From an alpha proteobacterium U9-1i (lineage in GTDB: Bacteria; Pseudomonadota; Alphaproteobacteria; Caulobacterales; Aquidulcibacteraceae): a stretch of DNA of 64,000 nucleotides. Below the pieces are notes generated by a model. It was given only the letters and a program-made list of their open reading frames with translations, was not told where the DNA came from and did not search any database. Shown here piece after piece: positions 2,289-25,179 of the stretch. The position numbers were made by a program, and so were the translations under genes. Numbering within the stretch: the first letter of the stretch is position 1; each line of letters begins with the position of its first letter. The stretch lies in assembly GCA_000974665.1 (NCBI GenBank), contig BBSY01000002.1, forward strand, positions 620,001-684,000, read 5' to 3'.

Positions 2289-5200
2289 ATGAACCCAGCG
2301 CAAGATCATCCCCAAGCCGGTGCAACCCTGACAGCGGAACAAGTGAAGGCCGCCAGGGCGATCTTGAGGTGGTCGCAGACCCAGCTCGCCCACGAGGCGG
2401 GGGTCGGGGCATCGACCGTGGCCGACTTTGAGCGGGGCCAACGGACCCCGGTGTCCGCCTCTCTGCAGGCCATGCGCAGCGCACTGGAAGGCGCGGGGAT
2501 CGCCTTTGTAGCCGGCGGCGCGGTGGAGGCCGGCAGCCTTGGCGCCTTCTCTGGGGCGGGCATGACCATGGACGCTTATGAGCGCCAGGGCGTGAGCCGC
2601 TACGCTCAGCTTGCGGCCATCGTCGCCTCGATCCTCGACGCCGCGATCCGCGCCCAGCCCAATCTGCATGCTCAGCCGGCACAGTACCGCGCCAAAGACC
2701 CGGCCTCGCTCAAGGCCAAGCTGGTCAAACTGGAGATCGCTGAAGGGCGCGATCTCACCACCGCGATCAAGGATCTGGCCGGCGTCAGGCTCGTCTTCTA
2801 TTCCAACGCCGACGTCGATCGCTTCCTGCACTCTGGCATCGTGCGGGACAATTTCGATGTCGATTGGTCACGCACGCGACTGCACTATCCAGGCGCCGAT
2901 CCCGCCCAGCCCGACAACCAATTCATCGGCAACAATTACGTGGTGCGGCTTAAACCCGATCGCGCGGCGCTGCCCGAATACGCACCCGTGGCCGGGCTCT
3001 GGTGCGAAGTGCAGGTGCAGACCATTCTGAACCACGCCTGGTCGGCGATGGCGCACGACACCATTTATAAGCGCCCCGATCTCGCCGGCGTTGGCCAAGC
3101 GCAAATGGAGCGCATCAATGCGCGCATGAGCAAGATCATGCGCCAATATCTGCTCCCGGCCGGGTTCGAGTTTCAGAAGGTGCTGGCCGACTTCGATCGT
3201 CTGGCCGAGGGCAAGAACCTCTTCGACACCGATGTCTTGGATCAGATCGTCAACGCGCCCGATAACAACGTGCGCTACGACTTGATCGACGCGTTCGACG
3301 ACAATGTGCTGCCGCTCTACGACAACATCACGGACGTCTATCCCGCGATCCGCGACGCCTTGCTGCGCGCCGTTGCGGTGGCGCGCACGACGCCCGAGCA
3401 GCCGAAGGAAACCCCGTACGGCAGCTTTATGGCCCGCACCGTCAAAGCCATCACCGATCGGGTGCTCAAGATCGTCATGCGCCTCCGATACGTCGACATC
3501 GAGGCTACGTTCGATGCGCTGGCCGAGCTTTATCTCGGCGCTGCCGCCGAAGAGGAGCGCGAATACGTTGTCAAAGCCGCGGCGGAATTCGCCAAGCATG
3601 ACCTTGCCGTCTGGCGCCAGCACGGGGCCATCGTTCAGATCCGGCTGTTGGATCGCATCGACACGCTCGATGAAAACCATCGCGCCTTGCTGCGGCCGCT
3701 GCTGACGGAAATCTACCGGAGCGCTCTCGATCCGGAAGTGCATGGCACGACCAGCACTTGGAACGCGGTGCAGATTTCAACGGGCTCCGTTGTCGCCAGC
3801 GATGCGCTCAAGATCATGCGCCGGCGCGCCATTGCTGCGCTGTTCGCGCAATATCTGGCGGCTGCGACCGATGTGGAACGGCGCGATATTATTGCGGCGC
3901 TGAATCGCGCCACGCGCATGCCGATCCGCGGCAATTACGCGGACGCCCTTCTGGTTGCGGTGCTGGACGACACCAAGACGGTTGTCGATTTCTATGCAAG
4001 CCAGGCCAGCGCGCAGGCGCACGAACTTCGCCAAGCGATCGAACACGATCTTCTGTTTCTCTATCACCGCAATCGCGGTGTGCCTCAGGAAGGGGAGTTC
4101 GCCGAAGCGATCGCCGCGGCGCGCGCAGCGTTGGATGCGGCGATTCTGCGCTATCGCGACACGGTCAACGCCATCGCCGACTTCGTCGCCTTTAAAACCC
4201 TCGTCGGCTACCAATCGGTGTTCGAGCCGGAATGGGAAAATTCCCAACTTGGCTGGGAAGCGAAGGAGGCTTACCGCGAGACGCGCATTGAAGACTACGT
4301 CGCCGGAATCGACGCCAGCAACGCCGATCACTGGTTCGACATCGCGCTTTCGTGCGCGTCGGTGAAGTCCAACGATCTCGCCACCTTTCCAAGCTTCGGC
4401 AAATTCATCCGACGCGTCTCAGAGCTCAAACCCGACATCGGCGAAGCGTGGCTGGAGAAGGCCCAAGGCACGCCGCTGGCGCGGTTCATGCCGGGCTTTC
4501 TACATGGGCTGGCCAAGAGCCGGCCGAAACTGGCGCGCAAGATCGCCAGCAGCGCCATCGCCAAAGGTGAGTTCTTGGCCGAAGTGGTGCTTTGGCTCCG
4601 CCACGCCGAGCCTCTCGATGGTTCGCTCGCCAAACGCGGCGCGGGCGCCGCAATCAAACGCGATGCGGCCGATGCGGTTTACACCGCGCTCGAAATGGCC
4701 GTCGCGCGTGCGCCCGATCTGGGCGCGGCCGAGGCGCGCGAGATTTTCCTGAGCTGCCTCAATTATCTCGATCGCACCAACAACGTCCATTGGACGCTGA
4801 CCGGTTCGATCTGGTGGGAGAAAAACAAATTCGCCGACGCGCTTACCGACGATGACCTGCGCACGGTGCTGAAGGCGCTGGTCGCCGTTCCGGAAGTGGA
4901 TTGGCACGTCGAGACCATGCTGATGGACATGAGTGCGCGCGTTCCTTCGGACGTCATCGCGCTCTTCGGTCAGCGCTTCGCCCATGAAAACGCGCTGCGC
5001 GAGGATCCGTTGAGCGCCCGCTATGAGGCCTTGCCGTTCAAGCTCGATCGCTTGGCGCCGCATCTGGCGGCGCACGTTGAGCTGACGCTGGCGCAGGCGG
5101 CAGTCTGGAACGCCGCCGATCCTCGGCTGGCGCGGTTCAAGAGCGCCGCCTTCATGGCCAAGCTCCACCCGCAATGGTCGGCCGGTTTGGAGAACGCGCT

Positions 5201-5615
5201 CTGGACACTCTTCGAGACCGGGGACCAAACCACGCGCGAATTCGTGCTCGCCGTGCTCGCCAATTATGAGGGCGCAGCGTTCATGCATCCGTTGTTGCGC
5301 AACATCGTCGCCGCCTTGCCGGAAGGCGACGAGCTCCTGTCCGACGTCAGCCTGGCGCTGCATGAGACCGGCGTCATGCATGGCGAATTCGGCGCCGTGG
5401 CCGCTTATCGCGCCAAAGCCGATGCGTTGAAGGCTTGGCTAACCGACGAGCGCGCGCGTGTGCGGGCCTTCGCTGAGGACACCATGCGCGGCTACGAAAA
5501 CCACATCGCCGCAGAGCAGCGGCGCGCCGAAGAGGACTTGGCGATGCGCCGGCTTGCCTATGACGAACCGCCTGTCCCGCCATCCGAAGCGACCGAGGGA
5601 GAAGAGCAGTCGTGA
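2289..5615 (+). CDS. Giant fusion: XRE-like HTH + RelA/SpoT-type nucleotidyltransferase domain + long helical C-terminus
   Basis: An 1108-aa protein. Residues about 14-72 form an XRE-type HTH (RAILRWSQTQLAHEAGVGAS). Residues about 130-262 resemble a (p)ppGpp synthetase domain: YRAKDPASLKAK (nucleotide-binding R/K/S/K pattern at 133-144), DLAGVRLVF (D162, R167), and CEVQVQT with H249 and H256 (E240, Q242). The segment that normally reads GYxSIHYVV is here FIGNNYVV (212-219), so the conserved Tyr and His are missing. The remaining roughly 840 residues look alpha-helical and match no family I recognise. The ATG at 2289 lacks a clear Shine-Dalgarno. The gene is coupled by a 4-bp overlap to two HEPN-motif genes. 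A toxic alarmone-type or other nucleotide-transfer effector in a defence operon is likely but inferred. Confidence 0.7.
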   Translation: MNPAQDHPQAGATLTAEQVKAARAILRWSQTQLAHEAGVGASTVADFERGQRTPVSASLQAMRSALEGAGIAFVAGGAVEAGSLGAFSGAGMTMDAYERQGVSRYAQLAAIVASILDAAIRAQPNLHAQPAQYRAKDPASLKAKLVKLEIAEGRDLTTAIKDLAGVRLVFYSNADVDRFLHSGIVRDNFDVDWSRTRLHYPGADPAQPDNQFIGNNYVVRLKPDRAALPEYAPVAGLWCEVQVQTILNHAWSAMAHDTIYKRPDLAGVGQAQMERINARMSKIMRQYLLPAGFEFQKVLADFDRLAEGKNLFDTDVLDQIVNAPDNNVRYDLIDAFDDNVLPLYDNITDVYPAIRDALLRAVAVARTTPEQPKETPYGSFMARTVKAITDRVLKIVMRLRYVDIEATFDALAELYLGAAAEEEREYVVKAAAEFAKHDLAVWRQHGAIVQIRLLDRIDTLDENHRALLRPLLTEIYRSALDPEVHGTTSTWNAVQISTGSVVASDALKIMRRRAIAALFAQYLAAATDVERRDIIAALNRATRMPIRGNYADALLVAVLDDTKTVVDFYASQASAQAHELRQAIEHDLLFLYHRNRGVPQEGEFAEAIAAARAALDAAILRYRDTVNAIADFVAFKTLVGYQSVFEPEWENSQLGWEAKEAYRETRIEDYVAGIDASNADHWFDIALSCASVKSNDLATFPSFGKFIRRVSELKPDIGEAWLEKAQGTPLARFMPGFLHGLAKSRPKLARKIASSAIAKGEFLAEVVLWLRHAEPLDGSLAKRGAGAAIKRDAADAVYTALEMAVARAPDLGAAEAREIFLSCLNYLDRTNNVHWTLTGSIWWEKNKFADALTDDDLRTVLKALVAVPEVDWHVETMLMDMSARVPSDVIALFGQRFAHENALREDPLSARYEALPFKLDRLAPHLAAHVELTLAQAAVWNAADPRLARFKSAAFMAKLHPQWSAGLENALWTLFETGDQTTREFVLAVLANYEGAAFMHPLLRNIVAALPEGDELLSDVSLALHETGVMHGEFGAVAAYRAKADALKAWLTDERARVRAFAEDTMRGYENHIAAEQRRAEEDLAMRRLAYDEPPVPPSEATEGEEQS

Positions 5616-6739
5616 GCGCCGAGCCGATCAAACTCAAGGATTACGATTTTCACGGCTTCGCCATGAATGGCGCCCTGGCTGGCGAAGAGGTGCAGGTCGC
5701 TCATCGCGCCATGCTGACCTCCGACAGCCCCGCCTTCTATGTGTTCATGCGCGGGGTATGCGACTCGCTTGCGGACGCGGCGCACGCAGCCGGCGTCCTG
5801 ATCCAGCCCGATCACGTCAGTCATCTGCTGTTGGTGATACATACCGGCCGCACAGCCGACCTCTATCTCGGCAATTTCGCCATGACGCTCGAACTGATGG
5901 CCAAGAAGGATATCACCGCTGGGCAAGCAGTGTCGGAGGCCGACATCGCCGACATCCGGCGCCTCAGGCTGCACGATGTGAAGCTCGACCCGAGCGACAA
6001 GGTGCTGATCTGCTTTAAGGTGAACTGGAAGTTCGGGCTCTATTTCGACCTCGGCGATGAAGAGCCCTTGGACATGAACGGGCTCGAACGCGACCTCGGC
6101 CACCTCTACCGCTTGCTGCGGTTTGAGGCCGCGTACGATGCGCTCGCCGATGAGAACTTCGTGGCAAGGTTCTTCGCAGGGGGATGGTTTCCCTTTGTCG
6201 AAATTTTCGGCCCAGAAAGCGAGCGCTTGCTCAAAGCTTGGCGGCTCGATTTCAACATCGCCGGCGAAGAAGAAGCCCTGCTGCGCCGTTTCGACGCCGC
6301 GCGGATCGACGCTATCGCGGCGCGGTGGGCGGCCCATCCCACATTGGGGCCCCACGCGGCCGTGCTGAACAGCGGCCTAGAAGCGTTCAAGCGCGGCGAC
6401 GCAGTGGCTTCGCTTAAAGTCATCCTCACCGAAATAGAGGGCGTGCTGCGTAACGCCCACATGGCGGAGAACGGGGCTAGCGCGAAGATCGGCCAGCTTT
6501 TGGCGTTTGCCGCCCAGCGGGGCCTGCGCAAGACCGAGTCAGAAGCGTCGCTCTTCTTTCCAGCTCTGTTCCTGCGCTACCTGACCACCTCCACGTTCGC
6601 GGCTTTCGATCCGATGGCGCCGACCAGCGATGCCTCACGCCACAGCGTCGGTCACGGTGCGGCCAATGCCGGCGCCTATACGCAAAAGCGCGCCCTGCAG
6701 GCCATTCTCACCTTGGATCAAATCGCGCGTTACCTGTGA
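5612..6739 (+). CDS. HEPN-motif protein, second gene of the RelA/SpoT-domain operon
   Basis: A 375-aa protein starting at GTG 5612, overlapping the previous stop by 4 bp, so translation is probably coupled. The last 33 residues contain RHSVGHG (R343, H348), an Rx4H motif of the HEPN type, followed by a helix (YTQKRALQAILTLDQIARYL) resembling the ends of RNase-like HEPN proteins found in abortive-infection loci. The N-terminal 300 residues are a mixed alpha/beta region I do not recognise. HEPN proteins are often metal-independent RNases, but not all Rx4H proteins cut RNA. Confidence 0.6.
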   Translation: MSAEPIKLKDYDFHGFAMNGALAGEEVQVAHRAMLTSDSPAFYVFMRGVCDSLADAAHAAGVLIQPDHVSHLLLVIHTGRTADLYLGNFAMTLELMAKKDITAGQAVSEADIADIRRLRLHDVKLDPSDKVLICFKVNWKFGLYFDLGDEEPLDMNGLERDLGHLYRLLRFEAAYDALADENFVARFFAGGWFPFVEIFGPESERLLKAWRLDFNIAGEEEALLRRFDAARIDAIAARWAAHPTLGPHAAVLNSGLEAFKRGDAVASLKVILTEIEGVLRNAHMAENGASAKIGQLLAFAAQRGLRKTESEASLFFPALFLRYLTTSTFAAFDPMAPTSDASRHSVGHGAANAGAYTQKRALQAILTLDQIARYL

Positions 6740-6749
6740 GCGATCGATT

Positions 6750-8081
6750 ATGAGCAACATCAAAACGCTGCGCCGATGGGTGCCCTTGCTTGAGGCGCAG
6801 GACATCGTCACGTCTGAGACCAACGTCATCGCGCGCGACCATGACCCCGTCATCATGACGGGCGAAGGCCGCATCGACATCAGTCATCCCGCGCGGTTCT
6901 CCTATATCTTCCGTGGCGTCGCGACCGATCTCTCGCGCGCGGTCGATCGGCTGATGCATGCCCGGCGCAACCCCTATGATGGGCTCAGCCAGTTTCGCAT
7001 CGAAGGCGTCGATCAAGGCGGGACCAAGTGGAGCTACGGCTATGTCCGGCCGAACCATATCGATCACACTGGCGAGCAATGGACGCTCGCCGGCGATTGC
7101 AACGGGCTCATCACCGACGATCCCGACGCCCATACGGAGAGCGGGGTTGAGCTCATCTTTCTTGTTCCGCCGGAACTCAATCTGGGCGCGTTGATGACCG
7201 ACACCGAGCGGCCGGATGGAGAGCCGCTGCTGCGGACACATGCGTGCAGCGTTCTGGGCGCTATGATCTCGTTTGCCTACGAACCGTCTACGCATCGGCT
7301 GTACGTCACCGCCAAGTCGAGCGAGGCGCTTCGCCATCCCTATCTCGAGAACTGGCTCGGTGAGCCATTTCGAATTCTCTTCGGCCAGCTGATCTATCCA
7401 AGGCTGGTCGCGCGTAATTTCGGCGATGGGCGGGCGATGATCGGTTTGCGCCCCTCGCCTGGGTTGGAGCCCGACGCCGGCTTTGCCGCACTCTGGAGCA
7501 GAGGCCGGGCGGAAGCGGGACGAAAGTCGTTCTGGTTATTGTACGAGAAGCTCTTGACCATCATCGCGACCGACAAGGACGATAAAGGCCATCCGAATTT
7601 TGAAGCGCATAAGATCACCGCGCTTTACGGCGAAATCATCCAGGCCGCACGCGGCTCGCGCTGGGTCTGGGCGCTTACCATGGCCAGTGCGGCCGAAGGG
7701 TTAACCAAGCTGATCATGCCCATGCTCGGGATCAAGATCGATCCTATCCTCGACGAAGAGATCGACAAACTTGCAGCCCACATCGAGAGCTGGCCAGGTT
7801 CAGCCGAGTTGAAACGGCGTGCCGTGAATGGACTAAAGCGCGCTCGCGATACCACCACCGTCGTGGCGCTCCGGCGTCTGCGCGAGCTGGGCGTGCTCGA
7901 GAAGGATCATCTTGGCGCATGGGAGACGCTCCGGCACGCCGTGATGCACGGATCGATGCTGGCACCGTGGTCTACCGAGGAGGAAGACAAGCGTCTGCTA
8001 GACCTCAGCGAACTGATGCACCGGCTGACGTTTTTTCTGTGCGGCGCGGTCGCGAGCGCGACGACTGAAGCCGTCCAATGA
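6750..8081 (+). CDS. ApeA-like HEPN-motif protein, third gene of the operon
   Basis: A 443-aa protein with the start chosen at ATG 6750, 10 bp after the previous stop; the longer frame from 6630 overlaps the upstream gene. The N-terminal half is beta-rich (INISHPARFSY-like segment, then WTLAGDCNGLI) and the C-terminal half helical. Near the C-terminus is RHAVMHG (R395, H400), a HEPN Rx4H motif, followed by a final helix (LLDLSELMHRLTFFLCG). This architecture, a large beta N-terminal domain plus terminal HEPN, is like ApeA-type abortive-infection RNases. The link to ApeA is by layout only. Confidence 0.6.
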   Translation: MSNIKTLRRWVPLLEAQDIVTSETNVIARDHDPVIMTGEGRIDISHPARFSYIFRGVATDLSRAVDRLMHARRNPYDGLSQFRIEGVDQGGTKWSYGYVRPNHIDHTGEQWTLAGDCNGLITDDPDAHTESGVELIFLVPPELNLGALMTDTERPDGEPLLRTHACSVLGAMISFAYEPSTHRLYVTAKSSEALRHPYLENWLGEPFRILFGQLIYPRLVARNFGDGRAMIGLRPSPGLEPDAGFAALWSRGRAEAGRKSFWLLYEKLLTIIATDKDDKGHPNFEAHKITALYGEIIQAARGSRWVWALTMASAAEGLTKLIMPMLGIKIDPILDEEIDKLAAHIESWPGSAELKRRAVNGLKRARDTTTVVALRRLRELGVLEKDHLGAWETLRHAVMHGSMLAPWSTEEEDKRLLDLSELMHRLTFFLCGAVASATTEAVQ

Positions 8082-8112: not shown

Positions 8113-9156
8113 CTAGAGCGGCAACCGCATCAGTGCCTGAAACGACTGCCCTGCGGTGCGAACCAGCGCGCCATTCGTATACTCCACCGCCTCGCAGCCG
8201 AATGGATTGCTCGACAGCGGATGCGTTGCGCTGGGATTGAGATAGAGCTTCAGCGACGGGGCAAACGACGAGGGCTTCCAGCGCTGGCAGGCCAGCACCG
8301 CGCTTACGTTGGCGCGCGGGCTCCGGATGAAGAAGCCGCGTTGTTCGCCCGAGCCTTCCCGGAAGAGAGCCTCCTCCACCTCTTCGTCGTGGGCGTAACT
8401 CTTGGCGCTGCAGATAGCGATAATGTAGGGCGCGCCGGCGTCGGCATATTTCCTATTCTTACGCTCCAACCCGCGGCGCAGCTCTTCGGAGGTGGCAAAA
8501 TCGTTTGGCGCGCCGTCCATCATGCCGACGCCGCCTTTGCTGCCGGGTTTGCGATAGGGGATGACCTGAAGCACGAGGTCGTCGCCATCTTTGATGGCGA
8601 ACGCATGGTGTTTGTTCTCAAGCGCCTTCGTGGAGAGGGCGGCGATGTCGAGCGTCATCATCTGCTGGCGTAGATCTCGCTGCAGCAATTTCACTGGCAG
8701 CGAGCGTCCGGGCGTCTTTCGAAGACGCACATAATAGAGCAGGCTCGGAATCTGGACTGCATCAATGGCGTCGCAGAGGATATCGTAGAGTTTGAGATTG
8801 CCCGGTTTGAGCATGCGACATTCCACAAAGGCGTGCGCATTGTCGCCAAGCTCGATGCGCTGATCGGGCAAGCCAGCTCCCAGTGGGGCGTCCGCTTGGG
8901 GGCCCAAACCGCGCCGCCGCGCCAATTCGTGCAACAAGAGTTCGAACACGGCGCCCAGATGGGCCGTGTTGTCCAATGAACGCAGGCGCTGCCGCAGCGC
9001 CGGCTTGTCGCCGCCATAACTGACGAATGCGCTCTCTATCAGCGCGCGCATTTGCGCGGCCTCCGGAATCGCGGTGGCGTTCAGAAAGGCAAATTCGCTG
9101 CGGTCGCTGGACGGGCCTTCGAGGCTTGTGCGTTCGATCTCGTCGAAAACCTTCAT
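8113..9156 (-). CDS. Protein of unknown function, possibly nuclease-like
   Basis: A 347-aa protein, the last gene of a minus-strand operon. Residues about 30-125 contain AHLGAVFELLLHELARRRGLG, then a segment ending HAFVECRML. That order (helix with a conserved Glu, then a beta strand with an acidic residue) is seen in PD-(D/E)XK-like families, but the K of an ExK signature is not evident, so the idea is tentative. A later part (KNRKYADAGAPYIIAICS) looks like a core beta strand and helix. It starts 9 bp after the preceding stop and converges on the HEPN gene that ends at 8081. Confidence 0.55.
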   Translation of the reverse strand: MKVFDEIERTSLEGPSSDRSEFAFLNATAIPEAAQMRALIESAFVSYGGDKPALRQRLRSLDNTAHLGAVFELLLHELARRRGLGPQADAPLGAGLPDQRIELGDNAHAFVECRMLKPGNLKLYDILCDAIDAVQIPSLLYYVRLRKTPGRSLPVKLLQRDLRQQMMTLDIAALSTKALENKHHAFAIKDGDDLVLQVIPYRKPGSKGGVGMMDGAPNDFATSEELRRGLERKNRKYADAGAPYIIAICSAKSYAHDEEVEEALFREGSGEQRGFFIRSPRANVSAVLACQRWKPSSFAPSLKLYLNPSATHPLSSNPFGCEAVEYTNGALVRTAGQSFQALMRLPL

Positions 9157-9165
9157 CGCGAATGT

Positions 9166-9900
9166 TCAGTGCGGGACGATGCGGCCGCCCGCGACCAGCA
9201 CGTCGCGGCAACGAACGCAAAGCAGCGTCAAATCCGAGCTACGCTCGCGGCCGACGCACTCCAGGCTCTTGTGGAAGACATCAAGACCCTCGCGCGCCTT
9301 GCAAATCTCACATTCGTGGTGGCCGCGCCGGTACATCCAATCGAGGTGCTCAAAGTGCATGGCGCGCCGGCGGCGCCAATCCTCGGTGCCGAGATACTCG
9401 GCATAGGGCAGCGTACGCATTTTGGCGCCGTGGATCTCCGCCGACTTTTCCTGCCGCTCCCGCTCGTCGCGGCGCTCACGCATGGTGGCGTCATAACAAG
9501 TCTCGCAAACAGCGCGGTAGCCTTCGGCAAATTGCGCGACGCCGTCGCGATGGCGCTCTAGGACCTGGCGCATCTGCGTGCGGCTGGTGATCGGCAAACG
9601 CTCGCCGCACCGATCGCAATTGATCGAGGTGACGACTGGCCCTGCGAGTTCGCGAAATTTATGTTGCGCCCGCGTGTCCTTCAGCACCGCCCAGGTCAAA
9701 TCGTCGGTGCGCACGTCGGGCATGTACCAATAGGCGTAGACAGCGGCGGCCAGACGCCGGGGGCCATCGGCGATGTTGTCGAGTTTCCTCGTTTCTTCCC
9801 GCAACGCGGCCTTCAATTGCGCGATCTGCGCTTCGTGGTCGCTGATCTTGTCGAGAATAGCGTCGAGCGCGTCGAGACCGGGTTCATTAGGACGTTCCAT
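9166..9900 (-). CDS. Degenerate HNH-like zinc protein
   Basis: A 244-aa protein. Residues 1-60 include a probable coiled coil (ILDKISDHEAQIAQLKAALR). Two Cys pairs, CDRCGE and CETCYD, form a zinc ribbon in the middle. The C-terminal third (YAEYLGTEDWRRRRAMHFEH, then CEICKAREGLDVFHKSL and LLCVRCRDV) follows the layout of HNH endonucleases that start with Y-x-EYL-x-T-x-xW. In active relatives the motif reads VHH and ends CxxCH; here these positions are FHK and CVRCRD, so catalysis may be lost while zinc binding is kept. It is the middle gene of three, 12 bp after the DUF4145 gene. Confidence 0.65.
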   Translation of the reverse strand: MERPNEPGLDALDAILDKISDHEAQIAQLKAALREETRKLDNIADGPRRLAAAVYAYWYMPDVRTDDLTWAVLKDTRAQHKFRELAGPVVTSINCDRCGERLPITSRTQMRQVLERHRDGVAQFAEGYRAVCETCYDATMRERRDERERQEKSAEIHGAKMRTLPYAEYLGTEDWRRRRAMHFEHLDWMYRRGHHECEICKAREGLDVFHKSLECVGRERSSDLTLLCVRCRDVLVAGGRIVPH

Positions 9901-9912
9901 GTTGGCCCCGAA

Positions 9913-10662
9913 CTAGCTGCCTGTCGTGCCGTCGCGCTTGGCGATGCCAGCAAGTGCTGCCGCGGGAAGGTCTTTATACATTCCGGCGATTTTCTTCGGC
10001 TGCGTGATCATCGCGTCGGCGATGAAGTTCACGAGCTCAAACAAGACCGACGCGGTCGCCGCGTCGTCCTTAAGATCGAGCTGGCCGGGATGGACCGCGT
10101 TGTTGCCGACCACACGCACGATATCGAGCGCCTGCTGGATGTCAGCACGGAGCCCGCGCTTGTTCATGCGCCCAATCGCATCATTGAGATCGCGGGCGTC
10201 CGGCTCGACGACTTGGCAGAGACGCTGGATCGCCAGACGCAGCAGAGCGGCCGCACCCCGCGGCGAGGCCTGGAAGATGCTGTCCGCCTCATTGAAGTCA
10301 CGCAGCGCCTCGCTCGGCAGATCAGGGTTGGCGTGGTGGGTCTTTTCGACCGGCGGCCACGCCGGCAAACGCCGCACCCACACGCTCAGTTGCTGACAAC
10401 TGAAGCACCGCGACAGCGCAACACTGCCGACATACGACAGCCCTTCGCCGCTGATCTGCCGCACCGCCGGGGCGGGAAAGATTCCAGGCGGATAGTCGCC
10501 GTCGTCGCTTTCGAACCGCTCGAACGTTTCGGGTTCAAGCCTGTGCTCATCGGCCTGCGCGCGCTTGGCCGCCCGGAGGCCGAACCATTCTTGCTGCGCG
10601 AGCGCCCCGCATTGCAGACAAGAGAAGCTTGCTTCGCCAAAGCGCGCCGGCACGTTCTTCAT
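9913..10662 (-). CDS. DUF4145 domain protein
   Basis: A 249-aa protein. A zinc-ribbon-like part (CLQCGA near residue 15, CFSCQQ near residue 86) is followed by the DUF4145 signature: SPRGAAALLRLAIQRLCQ, LNDAIGRMNKRGL and ALDIVRVVGNNAVHPGQLD. DUF4145 is related to HEPN-type helical domains and often accompanies restriction or defence genes. RVVGNNAVH provides the usual Arg and His of this family. It is the first gene of a three-gene minus-strand operon, and AAGG lies just before its ATG. Its precise role is unknown. Confidence 0.8.
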   Translation of the reverse strand: MKNVPARFGEASFSCLQCGALAQQEWFGLRAAKRAQADEHRLEPETFERFESDDGDYPPGIFPAPAVRQISGEGLSYVGSVALSRCFSCQQLSVWVRRLPAWPPVEKTHHANPDLPSEALRDFNEADSIFQASPRGAAALLRLAIQRLCQVVEPDARDLNDAIGRMNKRGLRADIQQALDIVRVVGNNAVHPGQLDLKDDAATASVLFELVNFIADAMITQPKKIAGMYKDLPAAALAGIAKRDGTTGS

Positions 10663-12021: not shown

Positions 12022-13791
12022 ATGCCCAGCGCCAGCATTTCGGAGTCGTTGCGACACTCAGCGCTGCTGAAGCCGTTCGATCGGCCGCACACGCTCGCGG
12101 GCAATCGCGGCATGCAGGTCGAGCGCGGTGAAGACCTGCTCAAGGGCCGGATCGAGAAGGGGCGGAGGGCGCCAGCGGCGCGCTCCGGATCGCTCGGCGC
12201 GCAGCTCTCGAAGTTGCTTGCGGAGCGAAAAGGCAGCGGGCCCAGCTCGCGCCGAGGCAAGTTCAAAACCGGCTATGCCGCAGATCCGCGTCAGCGTGCT
12301 GTGGTGACCGTGTTTCCGCAAAGCCATCGCGGCGACGCGGCTGGCAAATTGGTGGCGCATGGCAAGTATCTGGAGCGGGACGGGGCGGGGCCAGATGGCG
12401 AGAAGGGTCAGCTCTATGACCGTGACCATGATGGGATTGAAGCGTCGGCGCGGCTGACCGATTGGGCCGAGAACGACCCACGCCATTTCCGGCTGATGCT
12501 CGCCCCTGAAAGCGGCGTCCGCATCCAGGACCTCAAGGACTTCACCCGTGCGACCATGGCGCGGATGGAGCGCGACATCGGTCACAAACTCGATTGGATG
12601 GCGGTCGATCACCACAACACCGACAACCCGCATGTCCACGTCATCTTGCGCGGGCGCAGCCGCGATGGCGTCGAGTTCACGCTGGCGCGCGACTATATTC
12701 GCCACGGCCTGCGCAACAGCGCCCGCGACATCGCCACAGAGGTGCTGGGCAATCGCGGCCGGGACGATGAGCGCTTGGCGCTGGAGCGGGAAACGCGCGC
12801 GGAAAAGAAGACCCGCCTCGACCAATTGCTGGAGGCGGAGCTGAAGCCCGATAAGCCGATCCGCATTCAAGCCATTGGGCGTCGGTTCGAGCCGATGTTG
12901 AGAGCCGCGCTCCGCAACCGGGTCCGCGAGCTCGCGAAGATGGGCCTGGCGCGCGAAGAGAAGCGTGACCGGTTTCGGTTCGAGCCGGACTGGACGGCGC
13001 GACTGGAAGGGATCGGCGTCGGCATCGATCTGCGCCGCCGGCTCGGGCGCGAACTAGCGCCAGGGCAGGGGCGGCTCAAACTTTACGACCGCGAGATGGG
13101 GCGCATCGCTGGCGAGGTGCTGGAAGCGGGACGCCGGGGCGAGAAGGGCAAGGGCTACGTCATCGTGCGCGACAAGTTTAAGCGCCCGGTGCTGGCCAAT
13201 GTTCGCCATCGCGACGTCGACGGCCTGGAGCCCGGCGCTATCGTCGCCATCGAGCCGAAAACGCACGAGGGACCCGGCACCCGGGTCCGGCTTGATCGGC
13301 TCTCGGAAACTCCGATCAAATCGCAGATCGATGCACCTGCCGAGACTGAACTCGACCGCGAGATCGTCCGTACGCTCGCCGGCGCGCCGAACCGGCTGCC
13401 GAACACGCGCGAGGTCCGCAATGCCGTTAGCGAGCGGGTGGCATGGCACCAGCGCGAAGGCAACGGCCAGCGCGATCTGACCGGGCGCTTCGAGTTTGAA
13501 CCCGGCGCACTGGATCGGCTCAAATCAGCGGAGTTCTCGCGCGCCGAGGACAAGCTGGTGAAGGCGACCGGCAAGCGCGCCATTGACGTCGCCGATGGGC
13601 TGGAGCGCGAATGGCGCGTTCGCGGCTTCATTCAATTGCAGCAAGGACGCTTCGCCGCGCTCGAACGAAATGATTCCGTGGCGCTGTTGCGGCTCTCGCG
13701 CGGCGTCTCGTTGAAGCAAGGCAAGGCCTATTCGATGTCGGTTGCGAACGGAAAAGTGAAGGCAACGCCGTCGCTCGGCTTGGAGCGCTGA
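12022..13791 (+). CDS. Relaxase/mobilisation nuclease, DUF3363 type (VirD2-like)
   Basis: A 589-aa protein. The HUH-type metal motif is in DHHNTDNPHVHVILRG (residues about 194-209); an upstream segment (HFRLMLAPESG, then DLKDFTRATMARMERDIG) is typical of VirD2/RlxS-like relaxases, with the nicking Tyr expected in the N-terminal third (candidates in VAHGKYLERD). The C-terminal half matches DUF3363. Such proteins nick oriT and lead the strand into the recipient. The first 30 residues may be untranslated, with Met 31 (12112) as an alternative start. A paralogue lies at 25157-27151. Confidence 0.9.
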   Translation: MPSASISESLRHSALLKPFDRPHTLAGNRGMQVERGEDLLKGRIEKGRRAPAARSGSLGAQLSKLLAERKGSGPSSRRGKFKTGYAADPRQRAVVTVFPQSHRGDAAGKLVAHGKYLERDGAGPDGEKGQLYDRDHDGIEASARLTDWAENDPRHFRLMLAPESGVRIQDLKDFTRATMARMERDIGHKLDWMAVDHHNTDNPHVHVILRGRSRDGVEFTLARDYIRHGLRNSARDIATEVLGNRGRDDERLALERETRAEKKTRLDQLLEAELKPDKPIRIQAIGRRFEPMLRAALRNRVRELAKMGLAREEKRDRFRFEPDWTARLEGIGVGIDLRRRLGRELAPGQGRLKLYDREMGRIAGEVLEAGRRGEKGKGYVIVRDKFKRPVLANVRHRDVDGLEPGAIVAIEPKTHEGPGTRVRLDRLSETPIKSQIDAPAETELDREIVRTLAGAPNRLPNTREVRNAVSERVAWHQREGNGQRDLTGRFEFEPGALDRLKSAEFSRAEDKLVKATGKRAIDVADGLEREWRVRGFIQLQQGRFAALERNDSVALLRLSRGVSLKQGKAYSMSVANGKVKATPSLGLER

Positions 13792-14282: not shown

Positions 14283-15569
14283 TCAGGCCGCGTTGGCGCT
14301 TGGAGCTGTAGCGTCTTCTGTCTGCGGCTCCGCCTGTTTCGCGCCGGTGTAGATGGCGCCGACGTGGTCGAACGCAGCGCGCGTGGCTTCGTCCTTGAGG
14401 TGCGCATAGCGCGCGGTCACTTCCGGTCGCGAGTGGCCTAGCGCCTTTTGCACGAAGGCGAGGCTGTGTCCGTCTTTTATCAAGAGCGACGCGAACGTGT
14501 GCCGCAAATCATGGATGCGCAGATTTTCGAATTTCGTGCGCTTCAGCACCGCCCGCCACGCATGTCGCGGCGTCTCCATCGGGCCGTGGTAGGGCGCGGG
14601 CTTCGGAAACACCCAGTCGGTCTTGTTGGCCCGGCGCTTCAAAATCTCGACGGTGGCCGCATTAAGATTGATGACTTTGCGTCGCCCGCCCTGGCCCGTC
14701 TTATGACGCTCAGGCGCCAGCACGACGGCAGGGCGCGAGAAGTCCACCTCCGACCAAGCCAAGTCGCGCATTTCGGCCAGCCGCGAGCCGGTCAGGGCGA
14801 TGATGCGGAAGAGGTCGGCATGGTCGGGCCGGATTTCGGCGAGCGTTTCCATGTCGTCCAATGTCGTAAAAAGGTGGACGGCTTCCTCGTCGGTGAGGAA
14901 GCGCTCGCGCATCACATCGGCTGGTTTGGACACCCGCGCGGCCGGGTTGTCCTTGATGAGCTCGCGTTTGATCGCCCAGTTGAGCATTGCCGAAAGGGTG
15001 CGCGTGGCGCGTCCGACCACCTTGGGCCCGCCGCGGGTGCAGGAGAGCTTGCGGAAGCCGAGCTTCCTAACCTTTGCGGTCTTGAAGGCGGCGACGTCGC
15101 GCTGCCAGCGCTGGATGTCAGGTGTGGTGAGCGCGTTGATCGGCGTCGCCCCGAGGATAGGGTGGACGTGCAGCAACAGGTCTCGCTTGTCGCACTCCCA
15201 GGAACTCTCGCGCTTGTTCGGTTTATCGATCCGGCCTTCGGTCAAATAGAGCTGGATCAGTTCCGCTACCGTCGAGGCGTTTCGGTGGACCACCTTTTCA
15301 TGCTGGGGGTCGCCGCCGCCGCTGGCGTTGTGCTTGGCGTCCTCGGCGGCCTTGCGGGCCTTCTCGGCGGTGAAGGGGCCGTAGTCGCCGATCACCAAGA
15401 GGCGCTGGCGCCGGCCGGCGCGGTACTTGAGTTCGAAGGTCTTGCGCCCGCTCGGGCGGATACGCAGACGGAAGCCTTTTACGTCGCTGTCCCAGATGCA
15501 GTATGCTTTGTCCTGGTTCGGTTCGGCGGCGTCGATGACGCGTTTGGTGAGACGTTGAGCAGCCTGCAT
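14283..15569 (-). CDS. int: Tyrosine site-specific integrase of element 1
   Basis: A 428-aa protein. Residues 1-90 are an arm-binding domain of the DUF4102/P4-integrase type (KAYCIWDSDVKGFRLRIRPS). The catalytic domain shows the first Arg in LTGSRLAEMRDLAW, HDLRHTFASLLI (His-x-x-Arg), the late His in LGHSRPEVTARYAHL and the nucleophile Tyr in the same segment. It starts about 170 bp from the tRNA-Gly att repeat, with paired TGGTCACCAC motifs between, so it should act at that site. It resembles the second integrase (shared GRIDKP..R.SSW segment) but is clearly a different protein. Confidence 0.95.
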   Translation of the reverse strand: MQAAQRLTKRVIDAAEPNQDKAYCIWDSDVKGFRLRIRPSGRKTFELKYRAGRRQRLLVIGDYGPFTAEKARKAAEDAKHNASGGGDPQHEKVVHRNASTVAELIQLYLTEGRIDKPNKRESSWECDKRDLLLHVHPILGATPINALTTPDIQRWQRDVAAFKTAKVRKLGFRKLSCTRGGPKVVGRATRTLSAMLNWAIKRELIKDNPAARVSKPADVMRERFLTDEEAVHLFTTLDDMETLAEIRPDHADLFRIIALTGSRLAEMRDLAWSEVDFSRPAVVLAPERHKTGQGGRRKVINLNAATVEILKRRANKTDWVFPKPAPYHGPMETPRHAWRAVLKRTKFENLRIHDLRHTFASLLIKDGHSLAFVQKALGHSRPEVTARYAHLKDEATRAAFDHVGAIYTGAKQAEPQTEDATAPSANAA

Positions 15570-16064: not shown

Positions 16065-19000
16065 GTGAAGTACATTGATCTCGATCGCCGCTTCGTCAGT
16101 TTGGCCGAGGCGCAGGACATTGATCCGGAAGTTTGGCTAGCGATCCGCGGCGCCGACGGCCGCTTGGGTTGGAAGCAGTTGCTTGAGCGCAAGCGCGTCG
16201 TGATTTTGGCGGAAGCCGGAAGCGGCAAAAGCACCGAGCTTGAGCAGCAGTTCCGCGCCTGGAAGGGTGCCGGCCATGCGGCCTTCCACGGCAAGCTTCA
16301 GACCGTCGGACGCCGCGGGCTCATGGCCGCGATCGGCGGAAAATCCCGCACCGCCTTTGAGGCCTGGCAGGCGAGCGATGAGCCAGCTTGGTTTTTCCTC
16401 GACTCCGTCGACGAGGCCAAGCTCGACAACATCCGCTTGGATGATGCGCTCGGTGCAATCGCGGACGTGCTCGACCCTTATCTTGGCCGCGCTCACATCG
16501 TGCTTTCCGGCCGGCACACCGATTGGGAATTCCGCCTCGACCTGGAGCGCTTGGCGGATATTTTGCCCGTGCCCAATCTGCAGCCCTTGGAGGAGCTGTC
16601 GGATCAGGAGCGCCTGGACGATGTCATTCACAACCGGGCGCCAAGCCGAAAGACAAAGGACGAGGTCAAGCCGGAAGCGCCGTTAGTTGTAGTGCTGGCG
16701 GGGCTCGATGAGGCGCAAATTCGGCTGTTCGCCGGTGCGGCCGGCATCACCGACCTCGACGCCTTCTGCGATGCGCTAAAACGATCCGACCTGCTCGACT
16801 TTGCCAAGCGGCCGCTCGATCTGGACTGGCTGGCGCTCGGCTGGAAACGCGACAAGCGCTTCGGCGCCTTCGCCCACATGCTCGATCAGGCGCTTCAAGA
16901 ACGGTCCAAGGAAACCGACCCGCTGCGCGCTCAGCAGGCGCCGCTCGATCCTACGCGCGTGCGGGCCGCACTGCGCCGCATCGGCGCGGCGCTTGTGTTG
17001 TCGCGCAAGCAAGCCATCGCGGTGCCGGACAGCGGCCTCGCGGCTGATCCCAACGACGACGCCATCGATCTTCAAACGGTATTACCAGACTGGCAGCCGC
17101 CCGACATTCAGCGACTTGCGCGCCTGCCAGCGTTTGATCCGGGCACGCCGGGCAGGGCGCGCCTGCATAATGACAATCAAGGCGTCGTGCGCGGCTTTCT
17201 CGCCGCCGATTGGATGCGCGCGCTGCGCGCCAACAATTGCCCGGTGCGGTCGATCTTCGACCTGCTGTTCGCCGACGTTTATGGCCACGCCTTTGTGCGG
17301 CCCTCAATGCGCGAGACAGCCGCCTGGCTCTCCTTGTGGGACGAGGACGTCGCCAACGAAACGCTGAAACGCGATCCGTTCGTGCTGCTCAATTTTGGTG
17401 ATCCGGGATCGCTGCCGCCCGCTGTCAGAGAGCGGGCGCTGGAGCATTTCACCGCCGCGCTCGTCGCCGGCGGCGACAATCACATTCAGTATGACCACGA
17501 CGCTTTGCGGCGTTTCGCCAAACCGGATTTGGCGAGCGCCATCCGCAAGGCTTGGGCGGCGCATGGTGCGACCAAAAAGGTGCGCGCCTTCCTGCTGCAA
17601 CTGATCTGGCTGGGCGAAATCGAAGCGTGCAGCGATCTGGCCATTGAAGCGGCGTATGCCGCAGGCGCATCCCGGATTGTCGTGATCCTGGCCGGGCGCG
17701 CGCTGATGGTGAGCGCGCCTGACGCGGAAAAGAAGCGCTATGCCGCCCACATCAAAGCCAAGGCGGCGACCTTGCCGATCACGGCAGTGTGGGATGGGGT
17801 CGACAAGCTGTTTCCGGCCACGCTTCCGCCAGCCGATTTCATCGCCGTCCTCAATTCGGTTGATCTGTCCGATGGCGACAGCATTGGTGGGCTGGAGACC
17901 GATGGCGCTGCATGGGCGCAGCGTCTCGCTCAGCGCGACGATCTGGTGGCGTTGATTGAGGCGTTGGACGCCAAGGTGGCGCGCCCCTATGGCGACATTC
18001 ACAGCGTCGATGACAATGACGATCGCCAGATTCTGCCGATCATGGTGTCGGCTGCGCGGCGGCTGCTTGAGGTTGTTGGCGCTGACGAAGCGCCGGACGC
18101 GGCGATCGACGCCTTGCTGCGCATTGGCGGCGACAGTCGTGGCTATGACAGCGAACGCAATGAGCGGACCGTGCTGGCCAAAGCGATGCACTGTTCAAGC
18201 GGGCGACGCCGCGCCGCTTTCTGGCGCGCCGCGCATCGGCTGAAGAATGCCAAGTATCTGACCGACGGCTTGGACAGCGTCTGGAAGATGCAGCATTTCG
18301 GCTACGAGCCGGGTCTTGTGACTGAAGACGCCGATTGGCTGCTCGCAGATGCGCCACAACGCAAAGAGGCGTCCGAACGCGCCTTGGGTATCGATGGCGC
18401 CATGTGGGTGTGGCGCGCCACCGGCAAAGACGAAAATCTCTTGCAGCGCGTCCGCGCGGTCGCCGGGGCCGATGCGAAGCTGAAGGGCGTCATCGATGCT
18501 TGGACGGTCGAGCGCGCCAGTTCGCCGGAGATGGTCGAACTGGAAAAACGCCAGGAAGAGATGAAGCGCCAGGATCGGCTGCGCAAAGACAAGGTCTCCA
18601 AGTCGTGGAAGACCTTCATCGGCAGCTTGCGGGACAAGCCCGATCAGCTGCGCAAGCTGCGGCCGGTGACAAGCGACACCGTGGACCGGCGCCTGCACGA
18701 TGTGTGGCAATTGCTGAGCAGCGCCGATCGTGGCCGGTCGCGCTATGCGATTGACACAGCGGATGCGCTGAAGCCGTTGCTTGGCGCGGCGGCCGCGCAA
18801 GCGGTCGAGGATGCGCTGATCGACTTCTGGCGCAAGTGGACGCCGAACATTCGTAGTGGCCGCGCCGAGGACAAACGCGACCTTTCCTATTCCTTCGACA
18901 ATATGGGTATCGCCGGCATCGCCATGGAAGCCCGGCGCTCGCCAGATTGGCCCGCTTCATTGTCCGAGGCGGACGCGTTGCGCGCCGCGCAGTTCGCGAC

Positions 19001-20378
19001 GCTGGAACTCAATGGCTTCCCATCCTATGTGGCGCGCTTGGCCGCGCGTTTCCCAAACGCGGTTCGCGACGCGCTGATGACGGAAATTCGCGCCGAGCTC
19101 GACAATCGCAGTGCGCGTGGCGGCGTGCTGGAGGCGATCGCGAACACGGAGGAGGGCATTGCGCGGGTGTTGGCGCAGAGCCTGGAAGATGAGCTGCGTT
19201 TGCGAACCGATTTCGGCGAGCGTCACCTCAACGCCATGCTTGAAGCGCTTGCGCCGGTGGTTGCGTCGGAGCGGCGCGAGGATTTGACCACGCTGTTGCT
19301 GGAGCGGTTTCAGCGCACGGGCGCGCTGCGTGACGAGCAGATCGAATATCTTGGCGCCGCGTTCGAACTCGACGCGAAGCGCGCCGCGTCCGCAATGCTC
19401 GCCGCGGCCGCCAAGATGCAGCAGCCCGAGCGCTCCGAATTCCTGCAGCAGACTATGGCGGTCTATTTCGGCCGCTCCTATCGCCGCCGCCGCGGACCGG
19501 TCCGGGCGCCGTTTGAGATGCTGGAAGAATTGATCCGCGCCGCTTACGGCGCGATCGATCCGGCGCACGACGCCGTGCATAAGGGCGTTTACACTCCGGG
19601 GCTCCGCGACGACGCAGAGGGCGCGCGCTCGCATCTGGTGGAAATTCTCGTCAAGACGCCGGGCCGCGCCAGCTATGAGATGCTGCGCCGCCTCAACGAT
19701 GATCCCGAATTCAACAGCATGCCTGGCCGGTTCGAGGAATTGGCGATCTCGCGCGCCGCCGAAGACAGTGAGCACGAGCCTTGGCACGGCGCAGCCATTG
19801 CCGGATTCGAGGCCGATTTTGACGATACGCCTCGCACTGGCGCGGACCTGCTCCTGCTCACGCGCCGCCGGCTCGAAGATATCCAGCACGCGCTGACGGA
19901 GAGCGATTACGCCCAGGCCGCGACCCTGCGGGAGTTGGCGGGCGGTGAGACCGCGGTTCAGAACTTCATCGCCGAGCGCATGCGCATGAAGCAGGGCCGC
20001 GCCTATTCCATCGAGCGCGAAGTTCATGTCGCCGGCGAGAAGGAGCCGGACATGCGCGTGCGCGCGCGGGCGACCGATACTTCGGTCGCCGTCGAGATCA
20101 AGGATTTGGATTCGCCCTGGACGCTTCCTGATTTGGAAAAGGCGTTGCGCGACCAATTGTGCGGGCAGTACCTCCGCGACAAGGATCACCGTCACGGCAT
20201 TCTACTGCTCACTCATCGCCACACCCGGCCAAATGGATGGCGCGCCGCAGACGGCAGTTTTTGGGCGCTGCACCAGGTCGTGACGCACCTTCAAGGCTTG
20301 GCGGCAGAGATCGCCGCGCAGGGGCCGCATGCCCCGGACGCGGAAATCCTCGTCATCGATGTCGCCGAAGGCGCGTGA
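16065..20378 (+). CDS. STAND/NACHT-like NTPase with C-terminal PD-(D/E)XK-like nuclease domain
   Basis: A 1437-aa protein starting at GTG. Near the N-terminus are a Walker A motif (AEAGSGKSTE, residues 49-58) and a Walker B motif (WFFLDSVDEA, 109-118), followed by SGRHTDWEF, a pattern like STAND or NACHT ATPases. The middle roughly 1000 residues are helical and repeat-like, suitable as a sensor. At the C-terminus, D1329 in EPDMRV, then E1344 and K1346 in VAVEIKD, and QLCGQYL about 20 residues later fit a restriction-endonuclease-like fold. Large NTPase-nuclease proteins of this kind are typical antiphage sensors (Avs and related), but I cannot place it in a named type. A HEPN-motif gene starts at the next base. 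Confidence 0.7.
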   Translation: MKYIDLDRRFVSLAEAQDIDPEVWLAIRGADGRLGWKQLLERKRVVILAEAGSGKSTELEQQFRAWKGAGHAAFHGKLQTVGRRGLMAAIGGKSRTAFEAWQASDEPAWFFLDSVDEAKLDNIRLDDALGAIADVLDPYLGRAHIVLSGRHTDWEFRLDLERLADILPVPNLQPLEELSDQERLDDVIHNRAPSRKTKDEVKPEAPLVVVLAGLDEAQIRLFAGAAGITDLDAFCDALKRSDLLDFAKRPLDLDWLALGWKRDKRFGAFAHMLDQALQERSKETDPLRAQQAPLDPTRVRAALRRIGAALVLSRKQAIAVPDSGLAADPNDDAIDLQTVLPDWQPPDIQRLARLPAFDPGTPGRARLHNDNQGVVRGFLAADWMRALRANNCPVRSIFDLLFADVYGHAFVRPSMRETAAWLSLWDEDVANETLKRDPFVLLNFGDPGSLPPAVRERALEHFTAALVAGGDNHIQYDHDALRRFAKPDLASAIRKAWAAHGATKKVRAFLLQLIWLGEIEACSDLAIEAAYAAGASRIVVILAGRALMVSAPDAEKKRYAAHIKAKAATLPITAVWDGVDKLFPATLPPADFIAVLNSVDLSDGDSIGGLETDGAAWAQRLAQRDDLVALIEALDAKVARPYGDIHSVDDNDDRQILPIMVSAARRLLEVVGADEAPDAAIDALLRIGGDSRGYDSERNERTVLAKAMHCSSGRRRAAFWRAAHRLKNAKYLTDGLDSVWKMQHFGYEPGLVTEDADWLLADAPQRKEASERALGIDGAMWVWRATGKDENLLQRVRAVAGADAKLKGVIDAWTVERASSPEMVELEKRQEEMKRQDRLRKDKVSKSWKTFIGSLRDKPDQLRKLRPVTSDTVDRRLHDVWQLLSSADRGRSRYAIDTADALKPLLGAAAAQAVEDALIDFWRKWTPNIRSGRAEDKRDLSYSFDNMGIAGIAMEARRSPDWPASLSEADALRAAQFATLELNGFPSYVARLAARFPNAVRDALMTEIRAELDNRSARGGVLEAIANTEEGIARVLAQSLEDELRLRTDFGERHLNAMLEALAPVVASERREDLTTLLLERFQRTGALRDEQIEYLGAAFELDAKRAASAMLAAAAKMQQPERSEFLQQTMAVYFGRSYRRRRGPVRAPFEMLEELIRAAYGAIDPAHDAVHKGVYTPGLRDDAEGARSHLVEILVKTPGRASYEMLRRLNDDPEFNSMPGRFEELAISRAAEDSEHEPWHGAAIAGFEADFDDTPRTGADLLLLTRRRLEDIQHALTESDYAQAATLRELAGGETAVQNFIAERMRMKQGRAYSIEREVHVAGEKEPDMRVRARATDTSVAVEIKDLDSPWTLPDLEKALRDQLCGQYLRDKDHRHGILLLTHRHTRPNGWRAADGSFWALHQVVTHLQGLAAEIAAQGPHAPDAEILVIDVAEGA

Positions 20379-24813: not shown

Positions 24814-25179
24814 ATGAGGGATTTGGTGCCTCAGAAGCGCATTGCCTCTGAACTTGGCGTCAGCCGTTCAAGTCTATGGCGCGCAAGCCGTAGCGCCATT
24901 CCAGGATTTCCTTCGCCGGTCGTGCTTCGCGCTCGCGTTTATTGGCTTCGCAGCGACCTGCCGGCGCTGAGGGCCGCCATGGATCGTTTTCAGGGGCGAA
25001 GTGCGTTCGAAGCAGAGCGGCGCCATGCAAGGGCGCGCACTGCGCTCGCTGAAGCGACCGGCCTCAAGCCTAAGCGCCGAAAACAAGCGAGCGCGATTCC
25101 ACAGCCTGACTTGTTCGACGCTGACGGCGCCGCCGATCTCGGCGGCGCAGAACGCGCTAGCCGCGCCCGCCGATACTGA
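24814..25179 (+). CDS. Putative HTH protein next to the relaxase
   Basis: A 121-aa protein with the start chosen at ATG 24814; the open frame extends to 24601, but that extension is not protein-like. The N-terminal 60 residues (QKRIASELGVSRSSLWRA, then PSPVVLRARVYWLRSDLPAL) look like an AlpA-type HTH with a wing. The C-terminal part is charged and helical, ending in a short Ala/Arg tail that overlaps the 3' end of the convergent relaxase gene by 23 bp. Roles in controlling the relaxase or excision are possible but unproven. Confidence 0.5.
   Translation: MRDLVPQKRIASELGVSRSSLWRASRSAIPGFPSPVVLRARVYWLRSDLPALRAAMDRFQGRSAFEAERRHARARTALAEATGLKPKRRKQASAIPQPDLFDADGAADLGGAERASRARRY

Follow-up and report, generated by a model that had tools for sequence, protein, structure and literature searches.

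A RelA/SpoT-type synthetase joined to a large alpha-solenoid: a candidate single-gene effector-sensor of the abortive-infection type

Gene A, encoded near the start of a stretch of 64,000 nucleotides from the alphaproteobacterium U9-1i (contig BBSY01000002.1; the whole stretch is called the window here), is probably a self-contained effector-sensor protein of the abortive-infection type. It combines a RelA/SpoT-type synthetase with a HEAT/ARM-like alpha-solenoid, and its relatives form a widespread, laterally moving single-gene family. The best reading likens the protein to CapRel in its effector and to DSR2 in its sensor, and makes it a member of neither. By analogy with these systems we infer a defence function. 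Two further genes, B and C, follow on the same strand. The features of gene A are:

2289-5615, + strand: gene A, 1108 residues, with a helix-turn-helix (HTH), a RelA/SpoT-type synthetase and a HEAT/ARM alpha-solenoid
2343-2459, + strand: XRE-type HTH, residues 19-57 (HTH_3, 26.2 bits, cutoff 23)
2568-3203, + strand: small-alarmone-synthetase domain, residues 94-305
3204-5558, + strand: HEAT/ARM-like alpha-solenoid as modelled, residues 306-1090, the proposed sensor and autoinhibitor

The solenoid would keep the enzyme inactive and bind a phage component, and this binding would release the enzyme. Once released, the enzyme would move pyrophosphate from ATP to the 3'-CCA ends of tRNA or to a nucleotide ((p)ppGpp or (p)ppApp), and growth would stop before the phage is released.

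The HTH and the enzyme domain

A preliminary description of the window had assigned an HTH and a (p)ppGpp-synthetase-like domain to gene A. Both assignments hold, as the HTH_3 match and the RelA_SpoT match (residues 134-262, 32.8 bits, cutoff 27) exceed their Pfam cutoffs, and the nucleotide-transfer domain of that description is of the pyrophosphokinase type. In the computed structure, residues 94-305 adopt the small-alarmone-synthetase fold and the metal and ATP site is intact; confidence is low for residues 1-89. R134, K136, D162, G165, H199, E240, Q242, H256 and Y260 are invariant in 74 aligned rows. D162 and E240, which we take to form the metal site as in RelQ and RelSeq, and R134 and K136, presumably the basic residues of the ATP site, are thus present in 74 of 74.

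The HTH is an N-terminal addition, and the relatives usually start at M92. When five whole gene A proteins were scanned with HTH_3, the match was above the cutoff in the window copy, just below it in G038/L035 (the same gene as that of L050) and absent from the other three. No HTH was seen in the N-terminal extension of the L114 relative. In the window copy the HTH probably autoregulates the operon.

The G-loop tyrosine, as positioned by alignment with RelP, is replaced by Phe212 in the window copy, where it is paired with Asn216. The 74 rows are evenly divided at the G-loop position (37 Phe, 37 Tyr) and nearly so at position 216 (38 Asn, 36 His). Phe212 weighs against the effector-sensor reading of the window copy: it lowers catalytic certainty rather than homology, because this residue varies within gene A's own family. 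In CapRel, the G-loop change Y155A abolished protection (PMC9712102); activity of the Phe class is putative.

An alternative follows the same residues. The Phe212/Asn216 class, the window copy included, could have lost or changed its pyrophosphokinase activity and act by binding or on another acceptor. The two positions are nearly always coupled (Phe-Asn in 36 rows and Tyr-His in 35, with Tyr-Asn in 2 and Phe-His in 1), and on a tree calculated from the solenoid only, 3 changes are needed to account for the Phe-Asn label, of which well-supported branches force at least two. However, the metal and ATP-site residues are invariant in both classes, and a coupled double switch resembles re-tuning more than decay, so that we regard this alternative as decidedly unlikely. 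The natural split into Tyr-His and Phe-Asn provides a built-in test of what determines acceptor choice in this enzyme superfamily.

The solenoid, its partners and the spread of the family

After residue 305 the model of gene A is all helical, short strands (373-380 and 483-500) excepted. The large helical region had been reported earlier as about 840 residues without a visible family. The region is present, but it measures about 785 residues (306-1090) and is modelled as a HEAT/ARM-type solenoid. Among relatives the sequence identity is 0.31 in the solenoid versus 0.47 in the enzyme, and a solenoid that follows changing phage ligands would be expected to vary more.

Just behind the enzyme, at about 3204-3560 on the + strand (profile positions 215-336), a profile of 67 gene A relatives matches the small s protein 2wvq, 2wvn and 2wvo with E-values of 8e-4 to 6e-3. 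We take this protein to be of the HET-s type. The match may have arisen by chance between helices, or it may point to a HeLo-like segment.

The same type of solenoid was found with other partners. On plasmids of Legionella adelaidensis and Pseudanabaena galeata it is encoded by a separate gene, 2 nucleotides after a PIN_12 gene. With 25% identity the two PIN proteins are relatives, and each of the two plasmid records matching the PIN also has the solenoid. On a plasmid of Aulosira laxa the solenoid forms the back part of a 1206-residue protein, the front of which matches EAD10 and AAA/STAND below the curated cutoffs. This solenoid aligns with the solenoid family with an hhalign probability of 99.7 over 614 columns, compared to 2.2 and 0.7 for two OloA proteins, 0.1 for a HEAT-repeat protein whose front looks NTPase-like by eye, and 0.1 for the gene B family. 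In rhizobia, a poly-gamma-glutamate-hydrolase domain is fused to the C-terminus of the gene A protein (L031, 6653-10585; L070, 9866-13726), and L098 of the same clade has a similarly long C-terminus. In Bradyrhizobium retamae (L123, 9869-13016) enzyme and solenoid are two overlapping open reading frames (ORFs), by a natural split or a sequencing frameshift. The occurrence of one sensor type with different effectors suggests that the sensor and effector roles are separable and could be swapped experimentally.

A search of 398 genomes from the phylum of the window found no further PIN or STAND solenoids; the solenoid profile matched the window's own genome, one full-length A-type protein (G823, identical to L092) and, weakly, an unrelated gene. 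Nor were any found in the 292 genomes searched from the phylum to which the cyanobacterial locus L065 belongs, the matches there being the L065 genome and a single weak one spanning 51 positions. Viral contigs, searched with single-protein queries only, contained no PIN-type solenoid.

Gene A itself is widespread. In 84,980 species genomes of bacteria and archaea, 89 stretches encoding relatives were found, of which the best 80 were kept. These span seven phyla: Pseudomonadota, Nitrospirota, Cyanobacteriota, Myxococcota, Armatimonadota, Thermodesulfobacteriota and, from a metagenome-assembled genome, Poribacteria. Viral contigs contributed 2 loci, and 5 others bring the 82 loci of these two scans to 87. 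Of 101 genomes near the host, 4, counting gene A's own, carry it at nearly full length (approximately residues 93-1092 or beyond). Two plasmid records cover at least 80% of the query and another two hold the solenoid only. Phage records contained no full-length gene A; one matched residues 99-278 and another the HTH. Near-identical copies in different genera (e.g. L088 and L090) point to lateral movement.

The relatives are mostly solo genes of about 1000 residues. The 87 loci include three repeat records, and L032, L111, L112 and L128 have one neighbourhood in common. Setting aside the 3 loci where gene A is not a single ORF and the 10 where it lies within 1.5 kb of a contig end leaves 74. 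In 8 of these, which include two pairs of repeat records, an ORF of 100 residues or more on the same strand lies at -30 to 60 nucleotides; in L126 it is an unrelated ORF behind a truncated gene A, and in L115 it is transposase-like by eye. The 496-residue ORF behind the truncated gene A of L126 failed to match the gene A profile. An all-against-all comparison of genes within 5 kb at 80 of the 87 loci revealed no constant partner. One larger neighbour cluster, recombinase-like by eye, occurs at 9 of the 80, and the other clusters shown at 2 to 4. In L031, L108 and L126 large related proteins (1136-1257 residues), one of them annotated as SIR2 family, are encoded within 3 kb of gene A.

The neighbourhoods were also compared with the PADLOC models, using 90 random ORFs out of 357 (150-900 residues, within 3.5 kb of gene A) and 90 out of 218 situated more than 6.5 kb away. 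At an E-value of 1e-10 or better, 91 models were matched near gene A versus 10 far from it; since models were counted, of which several can match one protein, defence enrichment near gene A is a trend and not a rate. The 25 near matches listed of the 91 comprise type III restriction, effector endonuclease, DrmMII, PifA, methylases, SAVED and candidate families.

RelA/SpoT domains serve stress signalling for the most part. Gene A could accordingly be a stress or plasmid-maintenance alarmone synthetase that senses a host ligand through its solenoid and has no anti-phage role. The HTH, which suggests regulation, and the occurrence of copies both in chromosomes and on plasmids are in line with this usual role. 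However, a patchy distribution (one other full-length gene A in the 398 genomes of the phylum), defence-rich neighbourhoods, effector swapping and a fast-evolving solenoid all argue against it, and we consider the stress role unlikely.

A broader reading joins these observations. A transferable phage-sensing solenoid may serve at least three kill switches, namely a RelA/SpoT-type pyrophosphokinase (seven phyla), a PIN nuclease and an EAD10-STAND NTPase, with a hydrolase add-on in the rhizobial clade, and the acceptor used by the Phe-Asn half of the main family may be new. This joint reading is put forward tentatively, its chances being slightly short of even.

Genes B and C and the surrounding element

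The preliminary description had treated genes A, B and C as one three-gene abortive-infection system. The three same-strand ORFs are all present in the window, and the features of the second and third are:

5612-6739, + strand: gene B, 375 residues, GTG start, candidate HEPN protein
6638-6658, + strand: RHSVGHG (Rx4H motif), gene B residues 343-349
6750-8081, + strand: gene C, 443 residues from its own ATG, candidate HEPN protein
7932-7952, + strand: RHAVMHG (Rx4H motif), gene C residues 395-401

The GTG of gene B (5612) overlaps the gene A stop by 4 nucleotides, so the translational coupling of A and B, stated earlier as a fact, is plausible. The ATG of gene C at 6750 lies 10 nucleotides past the gene B stop; a longer ORF from 6630 was set aside. 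Both motifs are present as described, although the proteins were said to end in them and 26 (B) and 42 (C) residues come after.

The idea that the three genes act together would have A signal by a nucleotide or modify B and C, with the HEPN proteins cutting RNA. Their tight spacing and the conserved Rx4H motifs of B and C agree with it. Furthermore, HEPN proteins do pair with nucleotidyltransferases in MNT-HEPN, though these belong to a different enzyme superfamily (PMC3710099). Other genomes speak against it: the lack of a shared three-gene neighbourhood elsewhere, which the preliminary description had named as refuting its proposal, is what was observed. Searches with tblastn for B and C (E 1e-3) gave no match in any of the 87 loci bearing gene A. 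Conversely, no gene A was found in the 8 loci with B or C relatives (5 B and 3 C, read from 14 such plasmid records), and B and C never occurred together. Plasmid records matched at an E-value of 1e-5 number 22 for A, 8 for B and 6 for C, and have no accession in common. In 59 other genomes of the family and 384 others of the class, B and C are absent save for fragments of 34-57 residues, and viral contigs contain no relatives of either. A conserved A-B-C operon is ruled out by the 87 loci together with the reverse test, and a joint three-gene system is very improbable.

Genes B and C are best treated as two further candidate defence genes of the same island, located here behind gene A. They would encode separate candidate RNases of the HEPN type, transcribed together with gene A here as members of a defence island, and not subunits of the gene A protein. 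Their assignment as candidate HEPN proteins comes from motif conservation only. According to the survey of HEPN proteins, the arginine of their Rx4-6H motif is followed by a polar residue (PMC3710099), and the R[HN]xV[GM]HG motif near the C-terminus of B and C fits this description. R[HN]xVGHG is kept in gene B of the window and in 4 of 5 fetched relatives; these four include a near-identical pair from Bradyrhizobium, of which one member has an altered end. The fifth relative, L044, is interrupted, and its far piece is separate from the rest. R[HN]xVMHG is kept in gene C of the window and in all three fetched relatives. In 5000 shuffles, any Rx4H arose by chance in 58% (B) and 75% (C), versus 0.02% (B) and 0% (C) for the full pattern R[HN]x[VI]xHG. 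Thus of the earlier proposal of HEPN-type potential RNases the conserved motifs stand, whereas HEPN membership is suggested by the motif alone.

Neither B nor C has a convincing family in Pfam, NCBIfam or PADLOC, the few matches listed having E-values above 0.1. No HEPN profile matched them in Pfam or PADLOC, and none was found for six relatives (L042, L043, L045 and L046-L048) or among Protein Data Bank sequences. B and C are unrelated to each other; 13 columns round the motif align, with a probability of 0.3. One C relative (L048) is directly behind an Abi-family gene, another (L046) is two genes behind one, and the third (L047) is near a CHAT-domain gene. The Agrobacterium B relative precedes a Swt1-HEPN gene, the product of which matched neither B nor C. 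A 278-residue gene lies 44 nucleotides behind gene A in G038 (L035, 10181-11017). It has RHTTHDPHH near its end, which could be an Rx6H motif, and it matched neither B nor C.

The mobile-element setting and the defence-like neighbours noted earlier were both borne out. The surrounding features are:

1460-2242, - strand: Phd/YefM-type antitoxin and PemK-like partner (the partner below cutoff), directly before gene A and divergent from it
9913-10662, - strand: PD-T7-4-like DUF4145 protein, a known defence gene (PADLOC, E 7e-66)
12148-13788, + strand: relaxase-type gene (DUF3363)
14286-15569, - strand: tyrosine integrase of the mobile element
25160-27151, - strand: relaxase-type gene (Relaxase match below cutoff, DUF3363 match strong)

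The element also encodes a TraF-like peptidase. The two DUF3363 relaxase-type genes are on opposite strands with one integrase nearby, and perhaps represent two adjoining mobile elements. Downstream of the PD-T7-4 gene and on the same - strand are 8113-9156 and 9166-9900, two genes that have no family. At 16065-20378 (+ strand) a 1437-residue ORF and the 200-residue ORF directly after it have no Pfam match at an E-value of 0.01.

Comparison with known systems

The fold and active site of the gene A enzyme are those of the small alarmone synthetases RelP and RelQ, to which gene A adds the solenoid and the HTH; a (p)ppGpp role of gene A is putative. The PADLOC candidate PDC-S33 matches the RelA/SpoT stretch with an E-value of 2e-4 for gene A and down to 6e-11 for relatives. 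Only part of its 349-position model is covered, over the enzyme and without the solenoid. The OloA model of Olokun was matched by one PIN-type relative (L033, E 3e-7). Its weak matches include general HEAT-repeat proteins, and the low hhalign values of the two OloA proteins against the solenoid family indicate a generic HEAT resemblance; membership of gene A in Olokun was rejected. The P-loop NTPase core of STAND/Avs proteins has no match in gene A, and the Aulosira relative matches it below the curated cutoffs. No description of a RelA/SpoT-HEAT solenoid protein was found in the literature covered, which leaves out most subscription papers and bioRxiv preprints.

CapRel, a fused toxSAS toxin-antitoxin (e.g. 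CapRel-SJ46), is a likeness of the effector. Its enzyme is freed by a phage capsid protein and stops translation by tRNA pyrophosphorylation (PMC9712102). Its regulator is a small pseudo-zinc-finger (PMC9712102), whereas gene A has a 785-residue solenoid. The alignment between the two is confined to gene A residues 86-294, there is no pseudo-zinc-finger region in the gene A model, and the G-loop Tyr of CapRel is Phe in the window copy.

DSR2 resembles gene A in being one large protein with an N-terminal enzyme and a C-terminal alpha-solenoid (PMC11087589, PMC11263360). A phage tail-tube protein activates the N-terminal NADase of DSR2 by binding to its helical parts in the middle and at the C-terminus (PMC11087589, PMC11263360). 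Its effector is a SIR2 NADase, whereas that of gene A is a pyrophosphokinase-type domain: Pfam gave no SIR2 match in gene A and RelA_SpoT instead. DSR2 was absent from the 50 rows listed in VIA-align of gene A, an absence that excludes nothing, and the likeness of the two solenoids is at the level of design. If the effector-sensor reading is true, two known ideas, a toxin of the RelA/SpoT type and a phage sensor built as a large solenoid, are united in one multi-phylum gene.

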